NCBI GenBank assembly: GCA_018818405.1
Contig: JAHIRY010000038.1
Coordinates: 1 to 35,448, forward strand
DNA: 35,448 nt
From: Patescibacteria group bacterium
Lineage (GTDB): Bacteria; Patescibacteriota; Patescibacteriia; UBA11705; JABHMO01
Direction: 5' to 3'
Positions 3,984 through 27,227 of the stretch are shown piece after piece. The translations under genes were made by a program, and so were the position numbers. How positions within the stretch are numbered: the first letter of the stretch is position 1; each line of letters begins with the position of its first letter. Under the pieces are notes generated by a model that saw only the letters and a program-made list of their open reading frames with translations, was not told the DNA's origin and did no database searches.

Positions 3984-4060
3984 GGATCGGTGGTGTAGCT
4001 GGTTAACACATCGCCCTGTCACGGCGAAGATCGCGGGTTCGAGTCCCGTCCGATCCGCCA
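3984..4060 (+). tRNA. tRNA-Asp (anticodon GTC)
   Basis: Acceptor stem GGATCGG/CCGATCC, D arm around GTAGCTGGTTAAC, anticodon loop CTGTCAC with anticodon GTC, T arm CGGG-TTCGAGT-CCCG, discriminator G and an encoded CCA at 4058-4060. Length 77 bases. It has its own near-consensus promoter. Confidence 0.96.
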
Positions 4061-5344: not shown

Positions 5345-8300
5345 TTATGTTTTTTTCAATGTATCAACATCGTAAAAATCTTCATGCAGTTCATCCAGAT
5401 TCACATCCTCCAATTTTCCGGTAAATTTCTCGCCTTCCTTGCGCACCACTTTTTTCATTCCCATCACTTCAGCCTCAGTCTGCCGGCCGATATCCGTTCG
5501 AATCGTCGCATTCTCTCCTTCCGATTGAGCTTTGACAACATCTTCGCCGAGATTATGTTTCTTTAAAAATAAATCCTGCGCCAAATATCCTGATTCTTTT
5601 CCGGCCAGATTGTACAGAGGAGAACGCTTTGAAAAATATCCCGGTTTGTCAGCTGTCAAATAATAAATTTGGTTTCCCACGAGGAACGCGTAGCGGCCAT
5701 TTGAATCAGCCACTTGAGTGTCCAAGAGCTTGTTGAATTTGGAATCAAATACGCGCACGATTGATCGGCCGATTTTTTTCTTTTCGTCAACATCTTTAAT
5801 TTCGCCGAAACTCTTCGCTTTTTCACCGATTCCCAATTTTTTGAATATTCCATACATGGCGAGCTGAGAGACGACAATCGCGCCCACCCACCACTGCGGA
5901 TTGATTACAAATGAAGCGATCGCCAATGTCGGACCGATCATTGTCAATGCCGACTGCCCTTTTCTCATGAAATATTTTCGCAAAATTCCCTTTGGACTTT
6001 CCAACTTTTGAGACGGATCAAGCGCGATCGGCGGAGAAATCGTTTCTTTCTCAGTCACTTCGAAAATCGAACCGTAATACACATTCTGAAAATTTCCATC
6101 AACGCCGGCATTATTCAACAATCCGCTCGGAAATTTAAATCCTTTTTTCTCAACTGACATGAAATATTTTCCGGGCTTCAAAATGAATTGATAGCGTCCT
6201 TGTTTATCAGTCACCAGCGTTCGAACCAGCTGACTTGAATCAGCCGTATAAATACGCACAACCGCCAAATCAACCGGACGTTTTGTCACCGAGTTGTACA
6301 CAACGCCCCAGCGCTCTTTCTTCCTTCTCACAAACATGAGAAATGCCTGGCTCACGACAAATTGAATATAAGTGATCGCCGTCGCGCCGGTGACGCCGGT
6401 TACTCCGACAGTTGCCACGGACGCAACTGAAGTCGCGGTGACAGTCGCAATCACAGGCGCTTTGGCAACATCATTGGCTTGCTCTGCCACCGGATTGTCA
6501 ACTGTCGCTTGCTGTACTTGCTTTGTTGTTCTGATCGCCGATTTTGCCGTGCGATCAACTCCGGCTTTTACTTGTTCGTAGTCAACTCCAGAAATCGCAC
6601 TGATAACATTCGAAATCGCTTTTGTCGTATTTTGCACAGCATCGGACTGAAAAATGCTTTCAGTCTCAAATTCCAATTCTTGCGCTCGTTCATCAGCTGA
6701 TTTTTCCCATTCATTTTTTTCCTTTATGTCAGCCACTTGCTGCATTTTTTCCGGATCTTGCAAAATATTTATCGGGGGCGCGACCGCTATCGGTTTTTCC
6801 GGAATCGACTCTCCGCCGCCCGCTGCAGGCGGTGGAACCGGAGCAATCGGAGGTTCGACCGGAGGAGCTTCCGGTTTTATTTCCGGAATAATCGCAATCG
6901 GTTTTGGCACCGGTTTCGGTTCGACTATTTCTCTGACTTTCCGAATAGTCATTATTATTTGATTGGCGGAAACTGCTTTCGTCAGTTTTATTTCCAAATC
7001 ATTTTTTCCGTTTCGATCAACATCAAACTGCTTGGCCGCTTCTTTTATTATTCTGGCTTTGATCGGATCGCTTTCAATGATAATTCCGGAATCGCTTGCC
7101 GCCAAATTAACATTTTCAATTTTGAAAGTATGACGTATGTTGGCGATTTTAAATCCGAGAGTTCCGCCTTTTTGAATATTCACCAATGTGCCGGATTCCA
7201 CCAATTCAATATCTCTGGTTTCACCGCTGAGAACTGTAAATTCGGAATTCTCACTGTCATCAGTCAGACTGGAACAACCCGGATCATCCGGAAAATCAAT
7301 CAAACTATCCTTGTCATCATCTATTTTATTGTTGCACTGGCTGACAACTATTTTCTTGATTTCCAGATCGCTCGCCGCGGAAAATACGGAAATATTATTG
7401 GCCGCGTCCATTGATTTGACCGCAACCTTGTGAATGCCCGGAGTTAAAACCCTTGTCACGCTATATTTCCAGGCGGAAGCAACAACTCCCACATTGTCAA
7501 TCAATTGATTGTCCACATACAAAGCCACATATTTCGTATCAGCCGTTGTTGTGCCGGAAAATTCCATTTCAACCGAAACATTTTCACCTGATAATTTTTG
7601 CGATTTTATTTTAATGGAACTGATTGCCGGAACAAGCGGCGCAACAGTATCAACGGTAATTGTTTTGACCGCGGAATTCAATCCGCCTGATTTTATATAA
7701 ATTTTGTGCTCCCCATCAGTCAGGGCGGTTTCAACCGTCCATTCAAAACTTTTATCAATGCCGGAAGTCAAACTTTTTACTTTCACTTCATCAATATAAA
7801 TATCAAGAGGAAGCGACGCCTCTATTGTTGTTCCTTTGATTGTCGGTTTGCTGTTATTTGTCAGCAATCCATCGGCCGGAGATCCGATAACCGCAGGACC
7901 CGCATATTCGTGTTCTTCGTTGTCATCGTTTATGTCAACGCAATCAGGATCAGCCGGAAAATCTATTTTTCCATCCAGATCATTATCAATGCCGTCCTTA
8001 CATTGAGGAATGGTTGATTCATTATCATCTTCCAAGGTAGCGCAATCAGGATCAGCCGGAAAATCTATTTTCCCGTCAAGATCATTATCAATTCCGTCAC
8101 CGCATTGATACGGTCCGGCTTCATCATTATCAGTTGAACCGGAACAGCCGAGATCAGCCGGAAAATCAACCTTTCCGTCGCCGTCATTATCTGTTCCGTC
8201 ACTGCAAGCATAAGGTCCGCTTTCATCATTATCCGTCGAACCGGAACAACCGAGATCAAACGGATAATCAGTCAATCCGTCGTTATCATTGTCAATTCCA

Positions 8301-10648
8301 TCATTGCACAAATAAACCGGAGGCGGCGGAGCAGGAGGACTGCCTCCCAAAGTATAGTTATAGCTGATTCCTATATTTGTAATCTCCGGCGTCATTGTCG
8401 CCATGGCTGTTGAAAGATCAGCTCTCCAACGCAAATCGCTGCCCGCGTTCACAAAGGTATATTCCACTCCGGAAGTGACAGCCTCCCAATTTACTCCGCC
8501 ATTGGCCGATAAATAATAATCAATCGTTTGCCCGTTTAATACATCAGTCGCTGTCAATGTAGCGGCAGTGATATTCTGAGAAACCGTATCAACCGTAAGC
8601 GACTGAACCGTCTGAGCTGCGGCATAACCGGAATATATTTCGATCAAACTCCCGGCCTGATTGGCATAAATTACATCGCCGACAGCCATTGCTCTCACTC
8701 CGGTGATAAAATCCAAACCATGCATTTGTTTTGGCATACTATCATCTGAAATCGCTGTCCAGCTGGAACCTCCATTGATTGTATATTGAATCGTGCTGTA
8801 GCCGGAAACCATCATGACATTTTGATCCAATCCTTTTATTCGATAAAAAGCGGTGTCTGTTGCCGCGAATGTTCCGGTCAACCAATTCGTGCCTCCATCC
8901 ACTGTATAAAGATATGTATCAGTGCTGGCCTCTTTTGTCACAAAACAATTATCAGCATCATAACAATAAATCGTGCTCAAATTCGCTCCGGTTCCGCTGG
9001 CCTGCAATGACCAAACAGCTCCGCCGTCCGTTGTCTTCAAAATTCTTCCAAGATCTCCCAAGGCATAACCGACATTGCTGTTCAAGAAAAAAATATCATT
9101 GAATCCGCCCGCATAACCTGTTATTTGCTCAGTCCACAAAGTACCGCCATTAATCGTCTTGTAAATTCTCGTGTTTGAATCTTCGCCACTACCGACAACC
9201 CATCCCACATTTTCATCCAGAAAAAACACGCCCCACAAAAAACAGTTTACATCAATTCCCGTATTTTCATTTGTCCAGCCAACTCCGCCGTTCGTAGTCT
9301 TGTACGCGGTGCTGGGATATCCGACGCGCCAACCATTATTATCATCAACAAAAAAGACTTCATAGTTATCCTGCGCATTAGTGCTCGGTGTCCATGTACT
9401 GCCGCTGTTAATACTTTTCGCCACTGAATACTGCCCGGTAATATAAACTGTGTTTTCATTGGGAGCTTGAATACTTTCAAATGTTCTGGCAGTCAACGGA
9501 GTGTCAAATGCGGTCCAAGTAACGCCCGCGTCAGCTGTCTTAAAAATCATTCCGCTGTCTCCGACAGCCAAACCATTATTGCTGTCAATAAAATCAATCG
9601 CTAAAACATCAAAATTAAATCCTTCCGCCGCAAAAGTCTGAACAGTATTCCAATTTGTTCCGCCATCAAGAGTGCGATGAAGCTTTCCGCTATAATCTCC
9701 CGCAACATACATATCCTCCGCTGTCTTCACCGATTCCGCCGCGTAAGCCGGTGCTGACACCGGATCAACTGCAGGCACAACCCAATTCACACCGCCGTCA
9801 GTTGTTATCAATGTGCCATCCGTTCCCACCAACACGCCTTTTGCCGCATTGTACAAGGAAATATCATACATTGGATTTGTAAACGGATATGTCGCATTAT
9901 TCCAACCAAGTCCATCATAATAAACGACCGCATGCTGAGTATTCAATCTTCCACCGACAGCGATTACATTTCCTCCGACCGCTCCATCAATGGCATTCAA
10001 ATCACGAACCGTTCCGGTCGCTTCCATATTCCAATTCGTGCAACCATCCACGGTTGAAGCGATCTTTCCGCTCTCGCCAACGACCCAGCCGGTAGAAGCT
10101 GTCACAAAATAAAGATCATTCGGCTGAGAAATCGTAAAACCCGTATTTCCGCAAACAGCCCAATTCAACCCTCCGTCAATTGATTTTAAAACAGTTCCAT
10201 CCCATGCGCTGACATACACCATCATTGGCGGCATGGGAACGCTAATGCCTGTCAACTTTGTCAATCCGCCGCCGTAATTCGTCACTGTCCATGTCGTTCC
10301 GGTATCAGTGGTTCGCAGAATTACGCCATTATCTCCGACAGCCAGAGCGGTTGTGGCGTCAAGCCAAGCAACATCATTGATTCGCAACCCCTGAGGCAAT
10401 GGTTTTACCCAACCCCAAGAAAAACTTCCGTCAGTATGCAAAGTCGCTTGATTGTCGCGAACATTCCAATATGCGTCGGTGTTTGTCGTATCCTCATATG
10501 TTCTAGTCGTAAAATCTTCGGTAAATGTTTCAGTCGCGGCAATGGAATCTGATACCAAATAATGCCAACCAAAACCAAGACTGCCGCTCATGAGCATAAG
10601 CGCAATTATTGCATAAATTCCAAATCTCTTAAAAAACAATTTGATCAC
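5345..10648 (-). CDS. Giant modular surface protein (propeller, Asp/Cys repeats, Ig-like, carboxypeptidase-regulatory-like domains)
   Basis: A 1767-residue secreted or membrane-anchored protein. Start is a GTG (MIKLFFKRFG) giving a signal peptide with basic n-region and hydrophobic core (residues about 8-38). Residues about 85-680 hold roughly a dozen repeats of the form AVGDNGVILRTTDTGTTW, typical of Ycf48/BNR-like beta-propellers. Residues about 778-912 carry four tandem repeats C-x-DGxDNDxDGxxDFPxDxxC-x6-DxxE, with a fifth near 1103; the Asp spacing resembles thrombospondin-type calcium loops and the Cys are paired. Ig-like segments lie between. A Pro-rich linker (about 1239-1290), hydrophobic stretches (about 1405-1440 and 1560-1605) and two CarboxypepD_reg-like beta domains (about 1447-1530 and 1620-1685; both with DKQGRYQF or DSNGRYAF type cores) complete it. 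Probably cell-surface adhesion or attachment; ligand unknown. Confidence 0.85.
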   Translation of the reverse strand: MIKLFFKRFGIYAIIALMLMSGSLGFGWHYLVSDSIAATETFTEDFTTRTYEDTTNTDAYWNVRDNQATLHTDGSFSWGWVKPLPQGLRINDVAWLDATTALAVGDNGVILRTTDTGTTWTVTNYGGGLTKLTGISVPMPPMMVYVSAWDGTVLKSIDGGLNWAVCGNTGFTISQPNDLYFVTASTGWVVGESGKIASTVDGCTNWNMEATGTVRDLNAIDGAVGGNVIAVGGRLNTQHAVVYYDGLGWNNATYPFTNPMYDISLYNAAKGVLVGTDGTLITTDGGVNWVVPAVDPVSAPAYAAESVKTAEDMYVAGDYSGKLHRTLDGGTNWNTVQTFAAEGFNFDVLAIDFIDSNNGLAVGDSGMIFKTADAGVTWTAFDTPLTARTFESIQAPNENTVYITGQYSVAKSINSGSTWTPSTNAQDNYEVFFVDDNNGWRVGYPSTAYKTTNGGVGWTNENTGIDVNCFLWGVFFLDENVGWVVGSGEDSNTRIYKTINGGTLWTEQITGYAGGFNDIFFLNSNVGYALGDLGRILKTTDGGAVWSLQASGTGANLSTIYCYDADNCFVTKEASTDTYLYTVDGGTNWLTGTFAATDTAFYRIKGLDQNVMMVSGYSTIQYTINGGSSWTAISDDSMPKQMHGLDFITGVRAMAVGDVIYANQAGSLIEIYSGYAAAQTVQSLTVDTVSQNITAATLTATDVLNGQTIDYYLSANGGVNWEAVTSGVEYTFVNAGSDLRWRADLSTAMATMTPEITNIGISYNYTLGGSPPAPPPPVYLCNDGIDNDNDGLTDYPFDLGCSGSTDNDESGPYACSDGTDNDGDGKVDFPADLGCSGSTDNDEAGPYQCGDGIDNDLDGKIDFPADPDCATLEDDNESTIPQCKDGIDNDLDGKIDFPADPDCVDINDDNEEHEYAGPAVIGSPADGLLTNNSKPTIKGTTIEASLPLDIYIDEVKVKSLTSGIDKSFEWTVETALTDGEHKIYIKSGGLNSAVKTITVDTVAPLVPAISSIKIKSQKLSGENVSVEMEFSGTTTADTKYVALYVDNQLIDNVGVVASAWKYSVTRVLTPGIHKVAVKSMDAANNISVFSAASDLEIKKIVVSQCNNKIDDDKDSLIDFPDDPGCSSLTDDSENSEFTVLSGETRDIELVESGTLVNIQKGGTLGFKIANIRHTFKIENVNLAASDSGIIIESDPIKARIIKEAAKQFDVDRNGKNDLEIKLTKAVSANQIIMTIRKVREIVEPKPVPKPIAIIPEIKPEAPPVEPPIAPVPPPAAGGGESIPEKPIAVAPPINILQDPEKMQQVADIKEKNEWEKSADERAQELEFETESIFQSDAVQNTTKAISNVISAISGVDYEQVKAGVDRTAKSAIRTTKQVQQATVDNPVAEQANDVAKAPVIATVTATSVASVATVGVTGVTGATAITYIQFVVSQAFLMFVRRKKERWGVVYNSVTKRPVDLAVVRIYTADSSQLVRTLVTDKQGRYQFILKPGKYFMSVEKKGFKFPSGLLNNAGVDGNFQNVYYGSIFEVTEKETISPPIALDPSQKLESPKGILRKYFMRKGQSALTMIGPTLAIASFVINPQWWVGAIVVSQLAMYGIFKKLGIGEKAKSFGEIKDVDEKKKIGRSIVRVFDSKFNKLLDTQVADSNGRYAFLVGNQIYYLTADKPGYFSKRSPLYNLAGKESGYLAQDLFLKKHNLGEDVVKAQSEGENATIRTDIGRQTEAEVMGMKKVVRKEGEKFTGKLEDVNLDELHEDFYDVDTLKKT

Positions 10649-23477: not shown

Positions 23478-24023
23478 ATGCCAAAACAATCAGATTCTCA
23501 GGGCAGACGCTGGTATGTCATTCATACTTATTCCGGGTATGAAGAAAATGTCGCGGAAAACCTGAAACAAAGAATCGAATCCATGGACATGGAAGAAAAA
23601 ATCTTCAATATCATGATTCCAACGGAAAAGAAAATAAAAATTAAAAACGGAAAAAGAAAAGTCATCACCGAAAAAATTTTTCCCGGCTATGTGTTCGTGG
23701 AAATGATCGTGTCCGATGATTCATGGTATGTCGTGAGAAATACTCCGAGTGTTACGGGATTTATCGGCACAGGAACAATTCCCACTCCGGTCTCTCCGAA
23801 AGAAATCGCAGAATTGCAAAAGAGAATGGGAATTGACGAACCCAAATACACCATTGACGTGGCAGTTGACGCGCCGGTAAAAATCGTGGACGGACCGTTC
23901 AAAAACTTTGAAGGAAAAATCGCCTCCGTTGATGATGAAAGAGGAAAAGTCAAAGTTCTTGTTTCCATGTTCGGCCGAGAAACTCCGATTGAACTGGACT
24001 ATTTGCAAGTTCAAAAGATTTAA
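23478..24023 (+). CDS. nusG: Transcription termination/antitermination factor NusG
   Basis: Binds RNA polymerase and links transcription with translation or Rho. The 181-residue protein has the NGN domain (GRRWYVIHTYSGYEENVAENL, KIFPGYVFVEM, WYVVRNTPSVTGFIG) and a C-terminal KOW domain (VKIVDGPFKNFEGKIASVD to VQKI). Length and domain order are standard. Lies between secE and rplK. No SD before the ATG (TTATTCATATG). Confidence 0.97.
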   Translation: MPKQSDSQGRRWYVIHTYSGYEENVAENLKQRIESMDMEEKIFNIMIPTEKKIKIKNGKRKVITEKIFPGYVFVEMIVSDDSWYVVRNTPSVTGFIGTGTIPTPVSPKEIAELQKRMGIDEPKYTIDVAVDAPVKIVDGPFKNFEGKIASVDDERGKVKVLVSMFGRETPIELDYLQVQKI

Positions 24024-24086: not shown

Positions 24087-24126
24087 TAAAAAATAATTGT
24101 TGCTCGGATTTTTGATCATTTATCCT

Positions 24127-24168
24127 GTTCCATGCTATGTGTTCCATGCTATGTGTTCCATGTTATGT
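24127..24168. repeat. Three tandem 14-base repeats upstream of rplK
   Basis: GTTCCATGCTATGT occurs twice in a row (24127-24140, 24141-24154) followed by GTTCCATGTTATGT (24155-24168), one base different. Confidence 0.9.
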
Positions 24169-24196
24169 GACCAAGATACCCTTGCGCTAAAAATTT

Positions 24197-24622
24197 ATGG
24201 CAAAAAAAGAATTAACGAAAATCAAATTGCAAATTCCGGCGGGAAGAGCTACACCGGCGCCTCCGATCGGTCCGGCGCTCGGCCAGCATGGAGTGGCGAT
24301 TCAGGATTTTTGCACTCAGTTCAATGATGCGAGCAAAGATCGAATGGGCGACATTGTTCCTGTCATTATCACGGTTTACGCTGACAGAACTTTCAGCTTT
24401 ATAATGAAAACGCCTCCGGCAGCGGAATTGGTAAAAAAAGCGGCCGGAATAAAATCCGGAGCGAAAAATCCATTGCTTGACAAAGCGGGAAAAATCACAA
24501 AAGCCCAATTGGAAGAAATCGCAAAATTAAAAATGACTGATTTGAACACCACTGACCTGGAAGCTGCCAAAAGAACAATCGCCGGAACAGCCAAACAAAT
24601 GGGCGTTTCGATCGAAGGATAA
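24197..24622 (+). CDS. rplK: 50S ribosomal protein L11 (uL11)
   Basis: Large-subunit stalk-base protein at the GTPase centre. The 141-residue protein has the family N-terminal domain with [20 protein letters not shown] and [12 protein letters not shown], and the C-terminal rRNA-binding domain with [17 protein letters not shown] and [26 protein letters not shown] (described in pieces), ending MGVSIEG. Followed by rplA after 120 bases that carry a likely L1 binding hairpin. No SD before the ATG. Confidence 0.97.
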
Positions 24623-24641: not shown

Positions 24642-24674
24642 GTGGGAGTCTGCCTCAGGCGGACGAATTACCAC
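24642..24674 (+). promoter_or_regulatory. Probable ribosomal protein L1 binding site (autoregulatory operator)
   Basis: The RNA would fold as GUGG/CCAC, an asymmetric internal loop (GAG on the 5' side, CGAAUUA on the 3' side), UCUGCC/GGCGGA and a UCA loop. The two strands of the lower part, GUGGGAG and GAAUUACCAC, match the L1-binding helix of 23S rRNA (E. coli: GUGGGAG and GAAAUACCAC, from memory) with one base change. It lies 68 bases before the rplA ATG, so L1 could repress its own synthesis. Confidence 0.68.
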
Positions 24675-24742
24675 GCGCCAATTATTGAAATTGCGATCTA
24701 ACGAAAAGTTATACGCATTTTTCCAATCATTGGCTGATTAAT

Positions 24743-25429
24743 ATGCCGAAACATTCAACACGGTTCTCTGACCTGAAACAATCAGTTGATAAAACAACTG
24801 TTTTTCCGGCCAATGAAGCCATTGAAACAATCAAAAATTTAAAATCAGCGAAATTCGATGAAACAGTGGAAGTTCATTTTCGCCTGGGAATCAATCCGAA
24901 AAAAGGAGATCAGCAAGTTCGAGGCACTGTTGTCCTGCCGATCAGTTTCGGAGAAACGAAAAAAATAGCGGCTTTCGTTCCGGAAAATAAAGAAAAAGAA
25001 GCCAAGGAAGCCGGCGCTGACATTGTCTATACCGAATCAACCATCGGCGCTCTGCAAAAATCCGGAAAAATTGATTTTGACATTGCGATCGCAGTGCCGG
25101 AAATCATGAAACTGCTCGCTCCATTGGCCCGATTTCTCGGACCGAAAGGATTGATGCCTTCTCCGAAAAATGAAACCATTACAACAAATTTGAAAAAGAC
25201 GATCGAAGAATTGAAAAAAGGAAAAGTCGCATTTAAAAATGATGACACTGCCAATGTTCACCTCTCGATCGGCAAAAAAAGCATGGCAACCGAACAATTA
25301 ATGAAAAACTATGAATCAGTGTTCGATGCTCTGACCAAAGCAAAACCCGAAGGATCAAAAGGCGTTTACATAAAAAACATTACAATCTGCTCGACAATGA
25401 GCCCCGGCATAAAAGTAGCCGTAAAATAA
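24743..25429 (+). CDS. rplA: 50S ribosomal protein L1 (uL1)
   Basis: L1-stalk protein and, in many bacteria and archaea, a translational repressor of its own operon. The 228-residue protein shows FDETVEVHFRLGINPKKGDQQVRG (in parts), VVLPISFGETKKIAAF, the hinge region, FLGPKGLMPSPKNETIT, and the C-terminal VHLSIGKKSM and GVYIKNITICSTMSPGIKV. Preceded by a hairpin that mimics the rRNA L1 site and followed directly by a strong terminator, so rplJ and rplL, which usually come next, are not part of this operon. Confidence 0.97.
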   Translation: MPKHSTRFSDLKQSVDKTTVFPANEAIETIKNLKSAKFDETVEVHFRLGINPKKGDQQVRGTVVLPISFGETKKIAAFVPENKEKEAKEAGADIVYTESTIGALQKSGKIDFDIAIAVPEIMKLLAPLARFLGPKGLMPSPKNETITTNLKKTIEELKKGKVAFKNDDTANVHLSIGKKSMATEQLMKNYESVFDALTKAKPEGSKGVYIKNITICSTMSPGIKVAVK

Positions 25430-25437
25430 ATTCAATT

Positions 25438-25472
25438 TGAAAAATGTTCCGCTTATGCGGGACATTTTTTTT
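25438..25472 (+). terminator. Intrinsic terminator after rplA
   Basis: AAAAATGTTCCGC, loop TTAT, GCGGGACATTTTTTTT: a 13-bp stem (one G-U pair) with a T-run. Confidence 0.9.
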
Positions 25473-25779: not shown

Positions 25780-26610
25780 ATGACTCAATTCGACGAACTC
25801 TACAAAGCCGGCGTTCTGAAAATAATGAACGAGGGCTATGATGAATACAATGAACGAACCGGACATACTTGCAAGGTTATTCCGGGAATGACTTTTGAAT
25901 TGGATCTGGGATTTCCCCTGCTCACCCTGCGAAAAATTCCGCTGAAAATATTTGCGGCCGAACAAATCTGGTATATCATGGGCAGTGAAAAACCGGAAGA
26001 TTTCGTCAATAAATTCACCGGAATTTGGAAAGATTTCACTGAGGAAGACGGCACGGTTCCGGCTGCTTACGGCCACCGCTGGCGGCAAGCTTTCGGCAGA
26101 GATCAACTGGGAATGCTGGTAAAACATTTAAAAGATCAACCCGGCTCGCGCCACGGTGTTGTTATCACTTGGGATCCGCGAGAAGACGGACTGGGCGGAG
26201 AAAAATCGAAAAAGAATGTTCCCTGCCCTTACACTTGGACAGCTAATATAATCGGCAACAAATTGCATATTCACAGCATTGTCCGTTCGAATGACATGAT
26301 GCTCGGCTGTCCGCACGATGTCGCCGGATTTGCGCTCCTGCTCGCCATTCTGGCTGCTAAAATCGGAGTAAAGCCGGGAAAATTAACGCACAGCATTTCC
26401 AATGCGCACATTTACGATACTCATTATCAGCAAGCATGGGAATTGGTGGAACGGGAAAACAATCATCCGCCGATATATTTCGAAGCTCAGGGAAATTATT
26501 ATGATCGCGCGGAAAAAGGCGATGAATCGCTGGTAATGGAAATAGTGAATTTATTGGAAAGACAATATAATCCGCTCGGTTCGATTGGCGGAATGCGAAT
26601 AGTTCTTTAG
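25780..26610 (+). CDS. ThyA-family enzyme with a dCMP-type Asp at the base-reading position (thymidylate synthase or dCMP (hydroxy)methylase)
   Basis: Folate-dependent pyrimidine C5 (hydroxy)methylase fold, 276 residues. Conserved: R26 in ERTG, E61 and W64 (AAEQIWYIMG), YGHRWRQ, R124 of the phosphate-binding pair, catalytic C149 in VPCPYTW, R169-S170-x-D172 (VRSNDMMLG), H210 and Y212 (AHIYDTHYQQ). Not conserved: the second phosphate Arg is H125, the His after the catalytic Cys is P150, and the Asn that reads dUMP (N177 in E. coli, in PFN) is D180 in PHD. T4 dCMP hydroxymethylase also has RSND and Asp at this place, and an Asn-to-Asp change shifts ThyA towards dCMP (family knowledge from memory). 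DHFR follows, as for ThyA. It could still be the organism's only thymidylate synthase; substrate is uncertain, fold is not. Confidence 0.85.
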   Translation: MTQFDELYKAGVLKIMNEGYDEYNERTGHTCKVIPGMTFELDLGFPLLTLRKIPLKIFAAEQIWYIMGSEKPEDFVNKFTGIWKDFTEEDGTVPAAYGHRWRQAFGRDQLGMLVKHLKDQPGSRHGVVITWDPREDGLGGEKSKKNVPCPYTWTANIIGNKLHIHSIVRSNDMMLGCPHDVAGFALLLAILAAKIGVKPGKLTHSISNAHIYDTHYQQAWELVERENNHPPIYFEAQGNYYDRAEKGDESLVMEIVNLLERQYNPLGSIGGMRIVL

Positions 26611-26684
26611 AAGCTAGACTAGCGAGACTAGCAAGACAAGAAGTAAGATAAGCAATAAGCTCTCACTAAACTCGTCTCGCTTAT
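26611..26684. repeat. Palindromic GCGAGAC-family spacer after the ThyA-family gene
   Basis: AGCGAGAC (26621-26628) pairs with GTCTCGCT (26674-26681); GCTAGACTAGCGAGACTAGC-type words and AAGATAAGCAATAAGC fill the loop. Same word family as 24026-24086. Confidence 0.6.
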
Positions 26685-26693
26685 AAAAAAAAT

Positions 26694-27227
26694 ATGAAAA
26701 CTCGTCTAATAATGGTCATGTCTCTCGACGGCGTGATCGCCAAAAATTCAACGCACAATCCAATGGAATGGTCTTCGGCTGAAGATAAAAAACTTTATAG
26801 AGAAACCACAAAAGAAATCAGCGTTGTCATAATGGGACAAAAAACCTACGATGCTATCGGAATGCCGTTGCCCGGAAGACTGAATATTGTTCTAACCAGA
26901 GAAACAAGGGAAGATCAGCCGAATCTGCTGGAACACAAAAGCGGCGATGTGAAAGAAATTTTGAATGAATTGGAAAAACGCGGATACGCGCAAGCCGCGA
27001 TCTGCGGAGGAACTTTTGTCAATTCACTGTTTCTCAAAGAAAATCTGATCGATGAAATACAAATAACAATCGAACCGAAAATTTTCGGTTCCGGACTGCG
27101 ATTGTTCGATCAGATTGATGTTAATATTGATCTTGAACTCATTGAACTGAAAAATTTGAACGACAATACGATCAATGTTCTTTATAAAATAAAAAAAGCG
27201 GGAACTGATTTCAGTCCCCGACAATGA
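26694..27227 (+). CDS. Dihydrofolate reductase family protein
   Basis: 177 residues with the DHFR/RibD-C fold. MSLDGVIAKN at the start, EDKKLYRETT, the VVIMGQKTYDAIGMPLPGR segment (NADPH site and family signature), NIVLTRE, and the second glycine pair in ICGGTFVNSLF followed by EIQITIEPKIFG. Reduces dihydrofolate to tetrahydrofolate in the usual case, which ThyA-type reactions require; its position 83 bases after the ThyA-family gene fits this. RibD-like reductase activity is an alternative, since small CPR DHFR-like proteins are hard to tell apart by eye. No SD. Confidence 0.82.
   Translation: MKTRLIMVMSLDGVIAKNSTHNPMEWSSAEDKKLYRETTKEISVVIMGQKTYDAIGMPLPGRLNIVLTRETREDQPNLLEHKSGDVKEILNELEKRGYAQAAICGGTFVNSLFLKENLIDEIQITIEPKIFGSGLRLFDQIDVNIDLELIELKNLNDNTINVLYKIKKAGTDFSPRQ

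Follow-up and report, generated by a model that had tools for sequence, protein, structure and literature searches.

A putative L1 operator between rplK and rplA in Patescibacteria, and its possible readouts

In the DNA that we analysed (the window, a stretch of 35,448 nucleotides from a Patescibacteria group bacterium), a short irregular hairpin lies between rplK and rplA. Does this hairpin copy the site on 23S rRNA that ribosomal protein L1 binds, and if so, which gene would it control, and how? A sequence-only reading of the window had proposed that the hairpin mimics the L1 site and had pointed to its placement before rplA. Conservation, covariation, and comparison with rRNA support both points. 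Given these results, the sequence pattern, and the match to the 23S rRNA of other members of the order, the hairpin is very probably a uL1 operator, a mimic of the 23S L1 site within the rplK-rplA mRNA that lowers rplA expression. We infer both the binding and the repression.

The hairpin and its likeness to the 23S rRNA site

Read directly from the plus strand, the hairpin is GTGGGAGTCTGCCTCAGGCGGACGAATTACCAC, with the parts GTGG-GA-GTCTGCC-TCA-GGCGGAC-GAATTA-CCAC (Table 1). The basal stem has 4 bp, the strands of the internal loop have 2 and 6 nt, and the apical stem has 7 bp. The hairpin sits 19 nt past the rplK stop codon and 68 nt ahead of the rplA start. The folded 33-mer is more stable than expected (z = -3.12; 1 of 200 shuffles was equally stable), as is a 45-mer that includes the flanks (z = -2.16; 8 of 200 shuffles). 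The pattern GTGGGAG-N4..34-GAAWTACCAC matches the window once and 100 shuffles of it not at all; it also has a single match in the bacterium's own genome (1,059,643 bases), where the reversed pattern has none. Sequence, uniqueness of the pattern, and fold thus confirm the hairpin where it had been claimed.

Table 1. Features around the putative L1 operator (window coordinates)
Feature	Position	Strand	Basis or remark
nusG	23478..24023	+	TIGR00922; upstream gene of the cluster
rplK (ribosomal protein L11)	24197..24622	+	TIGR01632, 196 bits, E 2.4e-58
L1-operator hairpin (putative)	24642..24674	+	Read directly, pattern search, fold; matched by models R1 and R2
Basal stem	GUGG 24642-24645 / CCAC 24671-24674	+	
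Internal loop	GA 24646-24647 / GAAUUA 24665-24670	+	
Apical stem	24648-24654 / 24658-24664	+	Terminal loop UCA 24655-24657
Possible fifth basal pair, U24641-G24675	24641..24675	+	Fold
Weak terminator-like hairpin	24692..24722	+	Hairpin 24692-24717, -5.1 kcal/mol, then UUUUU; between operator and rplA
rplA (ribosomal protein L1)	24743..25429	+	TIGR01169, 270.7 bits, E 8.2e-81; presumed repressor and target

The product of rplA matches the L1 chains of PDB over nearly its full length, and with the match to TIGR01169, this indicates that the window encodes a standard L1 protein. A 23S-like irregular stem-loop, a place between rplK and rplA, conservation with covariation, and a standard L1 protein are what we looked for in an L1 operator, and all of them are found here.

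This genome's assembly does not contain a 23S gene that we could find. We compared the hairpin to other members of the order. We found 23S matches in 6 of 10 genomes of the order, and five loci contain the region of the L1 site, which reads GGTGGGAG ... GTGAGATACCACC. The window shares GTGGGAG and ACCAC with this site, and on the 3' side there are two base differences (GAATTACCAC in the window, GAGATACCAC in the 23S rRNA of the order-mates). The hairpin had been described as the rRNA L1 site with one change. This holds against the E. coli 23S letters, but not against the order-mates, for which the number is two.

The window's internal loop is a little unusual compared to the consensus of its relatives. 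Its 3' strand has 6 nt, versus 7 nt in 97 of 139 distinct sites, and the base three before CCAC is U, as in 31 of the 139 (it is a purine in 104 and C in 4).

The sequence-only reading had suggested an Rfam covariance search as a check. We ran this search with the curated covariance models, and no family matched the hairpin: no match overlapped it at E up to 10, and across the window only a tmRNA (1837-2219) and one tRNA (3984-4057) reached the gathering score.

Conservation and covariation ahead of rplA

We collected 254 rplA loci, of which 252 are distinct upstream of rplA (the sequence before rplA is identical in L008 and L194 and in L011 and L202; L013 and L038 have identical operators). 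The loci came from named GTDB contigs (17 loci), from the order (9 loci, including the genome under study), from a draw of 211 genomes across the phylum (177 L1-positive; 149 further loci taken), and from a draw of 144 genomes across the class (138 L1-positive; 79 further loci taken). Among the relatives that have names, the majority are Falkowbacteria, Magasanikbacteria, Buchananbacteria, Peregrinibacteria, and other Patescibacteria.

The pattern GTGGRA...ACCAC, with no requirement for a stem, is present ahead of rplA in 96 of 175 loci. Reversed and reverse-complemented sequences gave 0 matches each, and shuffled sequences averaged 1.9. The stem was not used for selection, yet 65 of the 95 distinct sites have an apical stem of at least 4 pairs (shuffles: mean 20.5, largest 36). 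The strict pattern is absent from the other 79 loci, some of which have variant sites. In the class set (101 loci), 76 loci have the pattern, and in 67 there are at least 3 apical pairs. As regular expressions, our search patterns miss variants (L021, L044, L047, L082, and forms with GAGG/CCUC) and let in weak false sites (L080, L159, L209, and L224). One member of the window's family, L028, has only a degenerate version of the operator.

We also built covariance models, from alignments A3 and A4; the first alignment, A1 (13 sites), and A2 were left out. Two models that were built without the window's site match the hairpin: R1 (22.0 bits, E = 0.0062) and R2 (17.9 bits, E = 0.39). A whole-genome search of five genomes of the family with R1 gave no match, the window's site included. 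R2, which was built from six relatives' sites of equal length, was run on all 254 loci and has a match near the rplA start in 149 of them (by set: 55 of 100, 39 of 55 with the window included, 52 of 79, and 3 of 20). In total there are 56 matches in the set of 100, 40 in the set of 55 (window included), 54 in the set of 79, and 3 in the 20 sources. All 153 matches are on the sense strand of rplA and none are antisense; the strand of the three from the 20-source set was assigned by comparison. Four matches are not near the rplA start: one in L134, one in L023, and those at the additional sites of L228 and L248. The match in L023, which is from the Bacillales, lies upstream of rplK. This is the arrangement that was published for Firmicutes, so L023 serves as a positive control.

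The covariation score of the stems was 0.523 in the first alignment (shuffled, 0.109), 0.543 in the second (shuffled, 0.103), and 0.568 in the third (shuffled, 0.111), and in each case none of the 500 shuffles reached the observed value. It was also above every slid version in all three. The third alignment is a replicate, as none of its loci were used to build the model. The shuffles ignore relatedness. Coarser measures gave less: for further pair types in the first alignment, 187 of 500 shuffles were as high, and for pairs with a two-sided change in the third, 114 of 500. All four Watson-Crick combinations occur among the apical pairs, and C-G or A-U can replace U-A at the second basal position (the A-U pairs of the third alignment are from two genomes of one family). 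Across relatives, the internal loop and basal stem are constant and the apical stem changes freely. The sequence-only reading had staked its case on covariation and on conserved internal-loop bases in relatives. The former is strong in three alignments; the latter is present, and it is flattered, as is conservation of the basal stem, because the alignments were fitted to the model and some loop bases are fixed by the search patterns.

We considered whether the hairpin could be an ordinary palindrome, a repeat, or a processing hairpin of the rplK-rplA gap, with no role for L1. Its apical stem is strong, and the gap holds other hairpins in relatives, as this explanation would have it. However, the apical stem occurs at just 5 places in the genome with up to 2 mismatches (itself included), so we rejected the idea of an abundant repeat; no U-run follows the hairpin; and neither the constant loop and basal stem around a free apical stem nor the likeness to the order-mates' 23S site would be expected. 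We consider this explanation very improbable, and we prefer the L1 operator.

Some relatives have additional structure near the site. In L007 (1671-1989), L196, L263, and L272, the operator arms span 110-319 nt, with a long sequence in the apical loop. This is what one would predict if the basal part is the one that chiefly counts. The insert in L196 resembles a dispersed repeat, by eye. In L056, L062, L068, L124, L178, and L201, the operator is followed, ahead of the start codon, by a further hairpin with a similar loop (TACGC...AAAGC or variants).

The sequence-only reading had also proposed that the main target of L1 would be its own gene, and our data support this indirectly. Pattern and model searches found no second operator site in the window. 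Some relatives lack rplK upstream or have it separated from rplA, and there the site still accompanies rplA. In L013, L017, L037, L040, L041, and L042, the 1.5-2 kb upstream contains no rplK, and the site is found with rplA; in these loci, a promoter-like sequence is followed by the hairpin at the presumed start of the message. More broadly, we considered 40 sites whose collected upstream DNA contains no rplK; a promoter-like sequence precedes 17 of them by at most 90 nt, against a mean of 6.0 and a maximum of 12 in shuffles. In L007 and L020, open reading frames of 72 and 130 codons separate rplK from rplA, and the site adjoins rplA. On the other hand, two members of the class from one family, L228 and L248, each have a second site before rplK as well as the one before rplA, which is a counter-case to control of rplA only. 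All four of these sites have the basal stem GAGG/CCUC instead of GUGG/CCAC, as if both sites followed one partner. Among 92 loci with at least 100 nt before rplK, two others were flagged as having rplK-side sites (L014 and L019), and we rejected these: they lie about 120-255 nt upstream, have stems of 3-4 pairs, and are probably inside nusG. Entries of that scan in which the start of rplK is negative are just the rplA site listed again.

Possible routes from binding to repression

We propose that free L1 would fill 23S rRNA first and that surplus L1 would bind the operator hairpin and lower the expression of rplA. The route from binding to repression probably differs between genomes. We measured the gap from operator to start at 108 sites for which a start codon is listed, including a few weak sites. 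The median is 14 nt (quartiles 11.25 and 16.75). A gap of about 14 nt in most relatives fits with bound L1 covering the ribosome entry region, so in these bacteria L1 would block ribosome loading. The 68-nt gap of the window is atypical and speaks against the simplest ribosome block.

In a minority of relatives, including three in the window's family, a terminator may compete with pairing of the hairpin's 3' arm. Among 26 leaders with a gap of at least 35 nt, an intrinsic terminator precedes rplA in 7; in shuffles the mean count is 0.6 and the highest is 3. The seven are L025 and L026 (the window's family), L099 and L118 (family f31), L214 and L250 (family f115), and L240. We added L027 (the window's family) by hand, as its stem of -6.5 kcal/mol was missed by the automatic rule; its terminator forms only if the operator is read in the register with a 7-nt loop, which is the register that we used. 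In L231 there are only four U.

The 5' part of the terminator can pair with the 3' arm of the operator and the bases that follow it (in L025, ACCACGACC with GGUCGUGGU). With L025, L026, and L027, 3 of the 4 other genomes of the window's family have a long gap and an arm-pairing terminator, as do four relatives from two other families (L099 and L118; L214 and L250). Few arms out of 140 others form an equally good pairing (L025, 3; L026, 5; L099, 2; L118, 1; L214, 2; L240, 4; L250, 1; L027, 11). When we shuffled the bases after ACCAC, the pairing was seldom as good in 500 shuffles for most leaders (L214 and L250, 0; L026, 1; L118, 2; L025, 3; L240, 7), with higher counts for L099 (27) and L027 (52).

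These leaders can fold into two mutually exclusive states. In L025, L099, and L027, the fold without the terminator is the more stable one, and imposing the operator on these three leaders makes the terminator form in the predicted fold. The two states are nearly balanced in L118, L214, and L250; in L026 and L240 the terminator-free state is the less favourable one, by 5 and 10 kcal/mol. We dropped L240 as a switch because its terminator is 10 kcal/mol too stable. Compared to 200 spacer shuffles, the energy balance is notable in L099 and L025 (0 and 9 shuffles as low), borderline in L214, L250, and L240 (14, 21, and 24), and not notable in L118, L027, and L026 (40, 54, and 80). L214 and L250 share one arm and belong to one family.

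L1-controlled attenuation in these relatives is thus a plausible candidate with uneven support. In such a scheme, for several lineages of the phylum including the window's family, the L1-bound operator would lock up the 3' arm of an antiterminator, so that a terminator would stop transcription between rplK and rplA. One site would then have two readouts, ribosome block and termination, which would be exchanged between close relatives. We see the case for this scheme as evenly balanced.

Alternatively, the terminators of the long-gap leaders might simply end the rplK message, with rplA transcribed from a promoter of its own. That several relatives have rplA behind a promoter-like sequence with no rplK upstream is in keeping with this. 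However, a scan with a simple sigma-70 consensus found no promoter between the operator and rplA in L025, L026, L027, L099, L118, L214, or L250, and in L027, L118, L099, and L026 just 2 to 17 nt separate the U-run from the start codon. Also, terminators of this kind would not need to pair with the operator arm. We judge this alternative to be improbable.

Could the window's own leader be an L1-controlled attenuator, in which bound L1 stops the 3' arm from forming an antiterminator and the terminator forms before rplA? The terminators, arm pairing, and favourable folds of the relatives argue for this, as does the window's weak terminator-like hairpin, which was matched in quality by only 6 of 300 spacer shuffles. 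The automatic terminator scan did not list this hairpin. Its pairing with the window's own arm is not special (31 of 140 other arms are as good), and breaking the operator leaves the predicted downstream hairpin unchanged, both of which argue against a switch here. The weaker results among the relatives (the shuffles for L099 and L027, the energy balances of L118, L027, and L026, the excessive stability in L240, and the arm and family that L214 and L250 have in common) also count against it. Overall, an attenuator in the window seems doubtful. As an operator, the window's hairpin might act by disturbing the re-initiation of ribosomes that arrive from rplK, or through a leader that terminates weakly.

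Relation to known systems and other features

A 2024 review places L1 sites upstream of rplK in Proteobacteria, of rplA in Actinobacteria and Cyanobacteria, and of both genes in Firmicutes, Thermus, and Thermotoga, and describes L1 control as acting at translation (PMC10931766). Sites next to rplA are therefore already in print, and neither the position of the window's hairpin nor the contrast with E. coli is new. As described there, the known sites of the rplK-rplA operon have the same irregular stem-loop with a 23S-like internal loop, and those of Actinobacteria and Cyanobacteria have the same position before rplA (PMC10931766). What differs is the lineage, which is mostly uncultured, the 68-nt gap of the window, and the terminator between operator and rplA in some relatives. 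The review also mentions archaeal L1 operators (PMC10931766). These are likewise mRNA mimics of the 23S L1 site. In Methanococcus, the L1 operator is inside the L1 coding region, whereas the window's site is between genes.

The leaders of L20 and L10(L12)4 in Bacillus subtilis are described as working by transcription attenuation (PMC4538822, PMC10931766). By that description, a terminator there is under the control of a ribosomal protein that binds the leader, as we propose for relatives such as L025 and L099; the protein and the RNA motif are different, and L1 attenuation is a prediction for relatives and doubtful for the window. Among the literature matches listed (titles and abstract openings, with many journals outside the coverage), none dealt with L1 operators in Patescibacteria or with L1-controlled attenuation.

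These results extend feedback by ribosomal proteins through rRNA mimicry to a large and mostly uncultured group of bacteria, and the element is common among relatives of a bacterium with a small genome. A covariance model is now available for an element that has no Rfam match. If the attenuators are real, then L1 would be added to a short list of ribosomal proteins that end transcription, and relatives that keep the same site but read it out differently would offer a testable case of regulatory evolution.

We also noted some features that are not part of the operator. In many relatives (L050, L057, and others), the open reading frame of L1 is far longer than 228 residues, up to about 370, which suggests N-terminal extensions of L1. 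In the window, a 14-nt unit (TGTTCCATGCTATG) is repeated in tandem about three times just upstream of rplK (24126-24169). A terminator-like hairpin followed by TTTTT lies within the start of rplA (24783-24800) and may be due to chance. Directly after rplA (25440-25472) there is a strong hairpin with T8, seen by eye and absent from the list of the terminator scan. Farther downstream (25780-27227) are frames that resemble thymidylate synthase and dihydrofolate reductase, with scores under the curated cut-offs, and the minus strand at 5345-10648 contains an open frame of 1767 residues.
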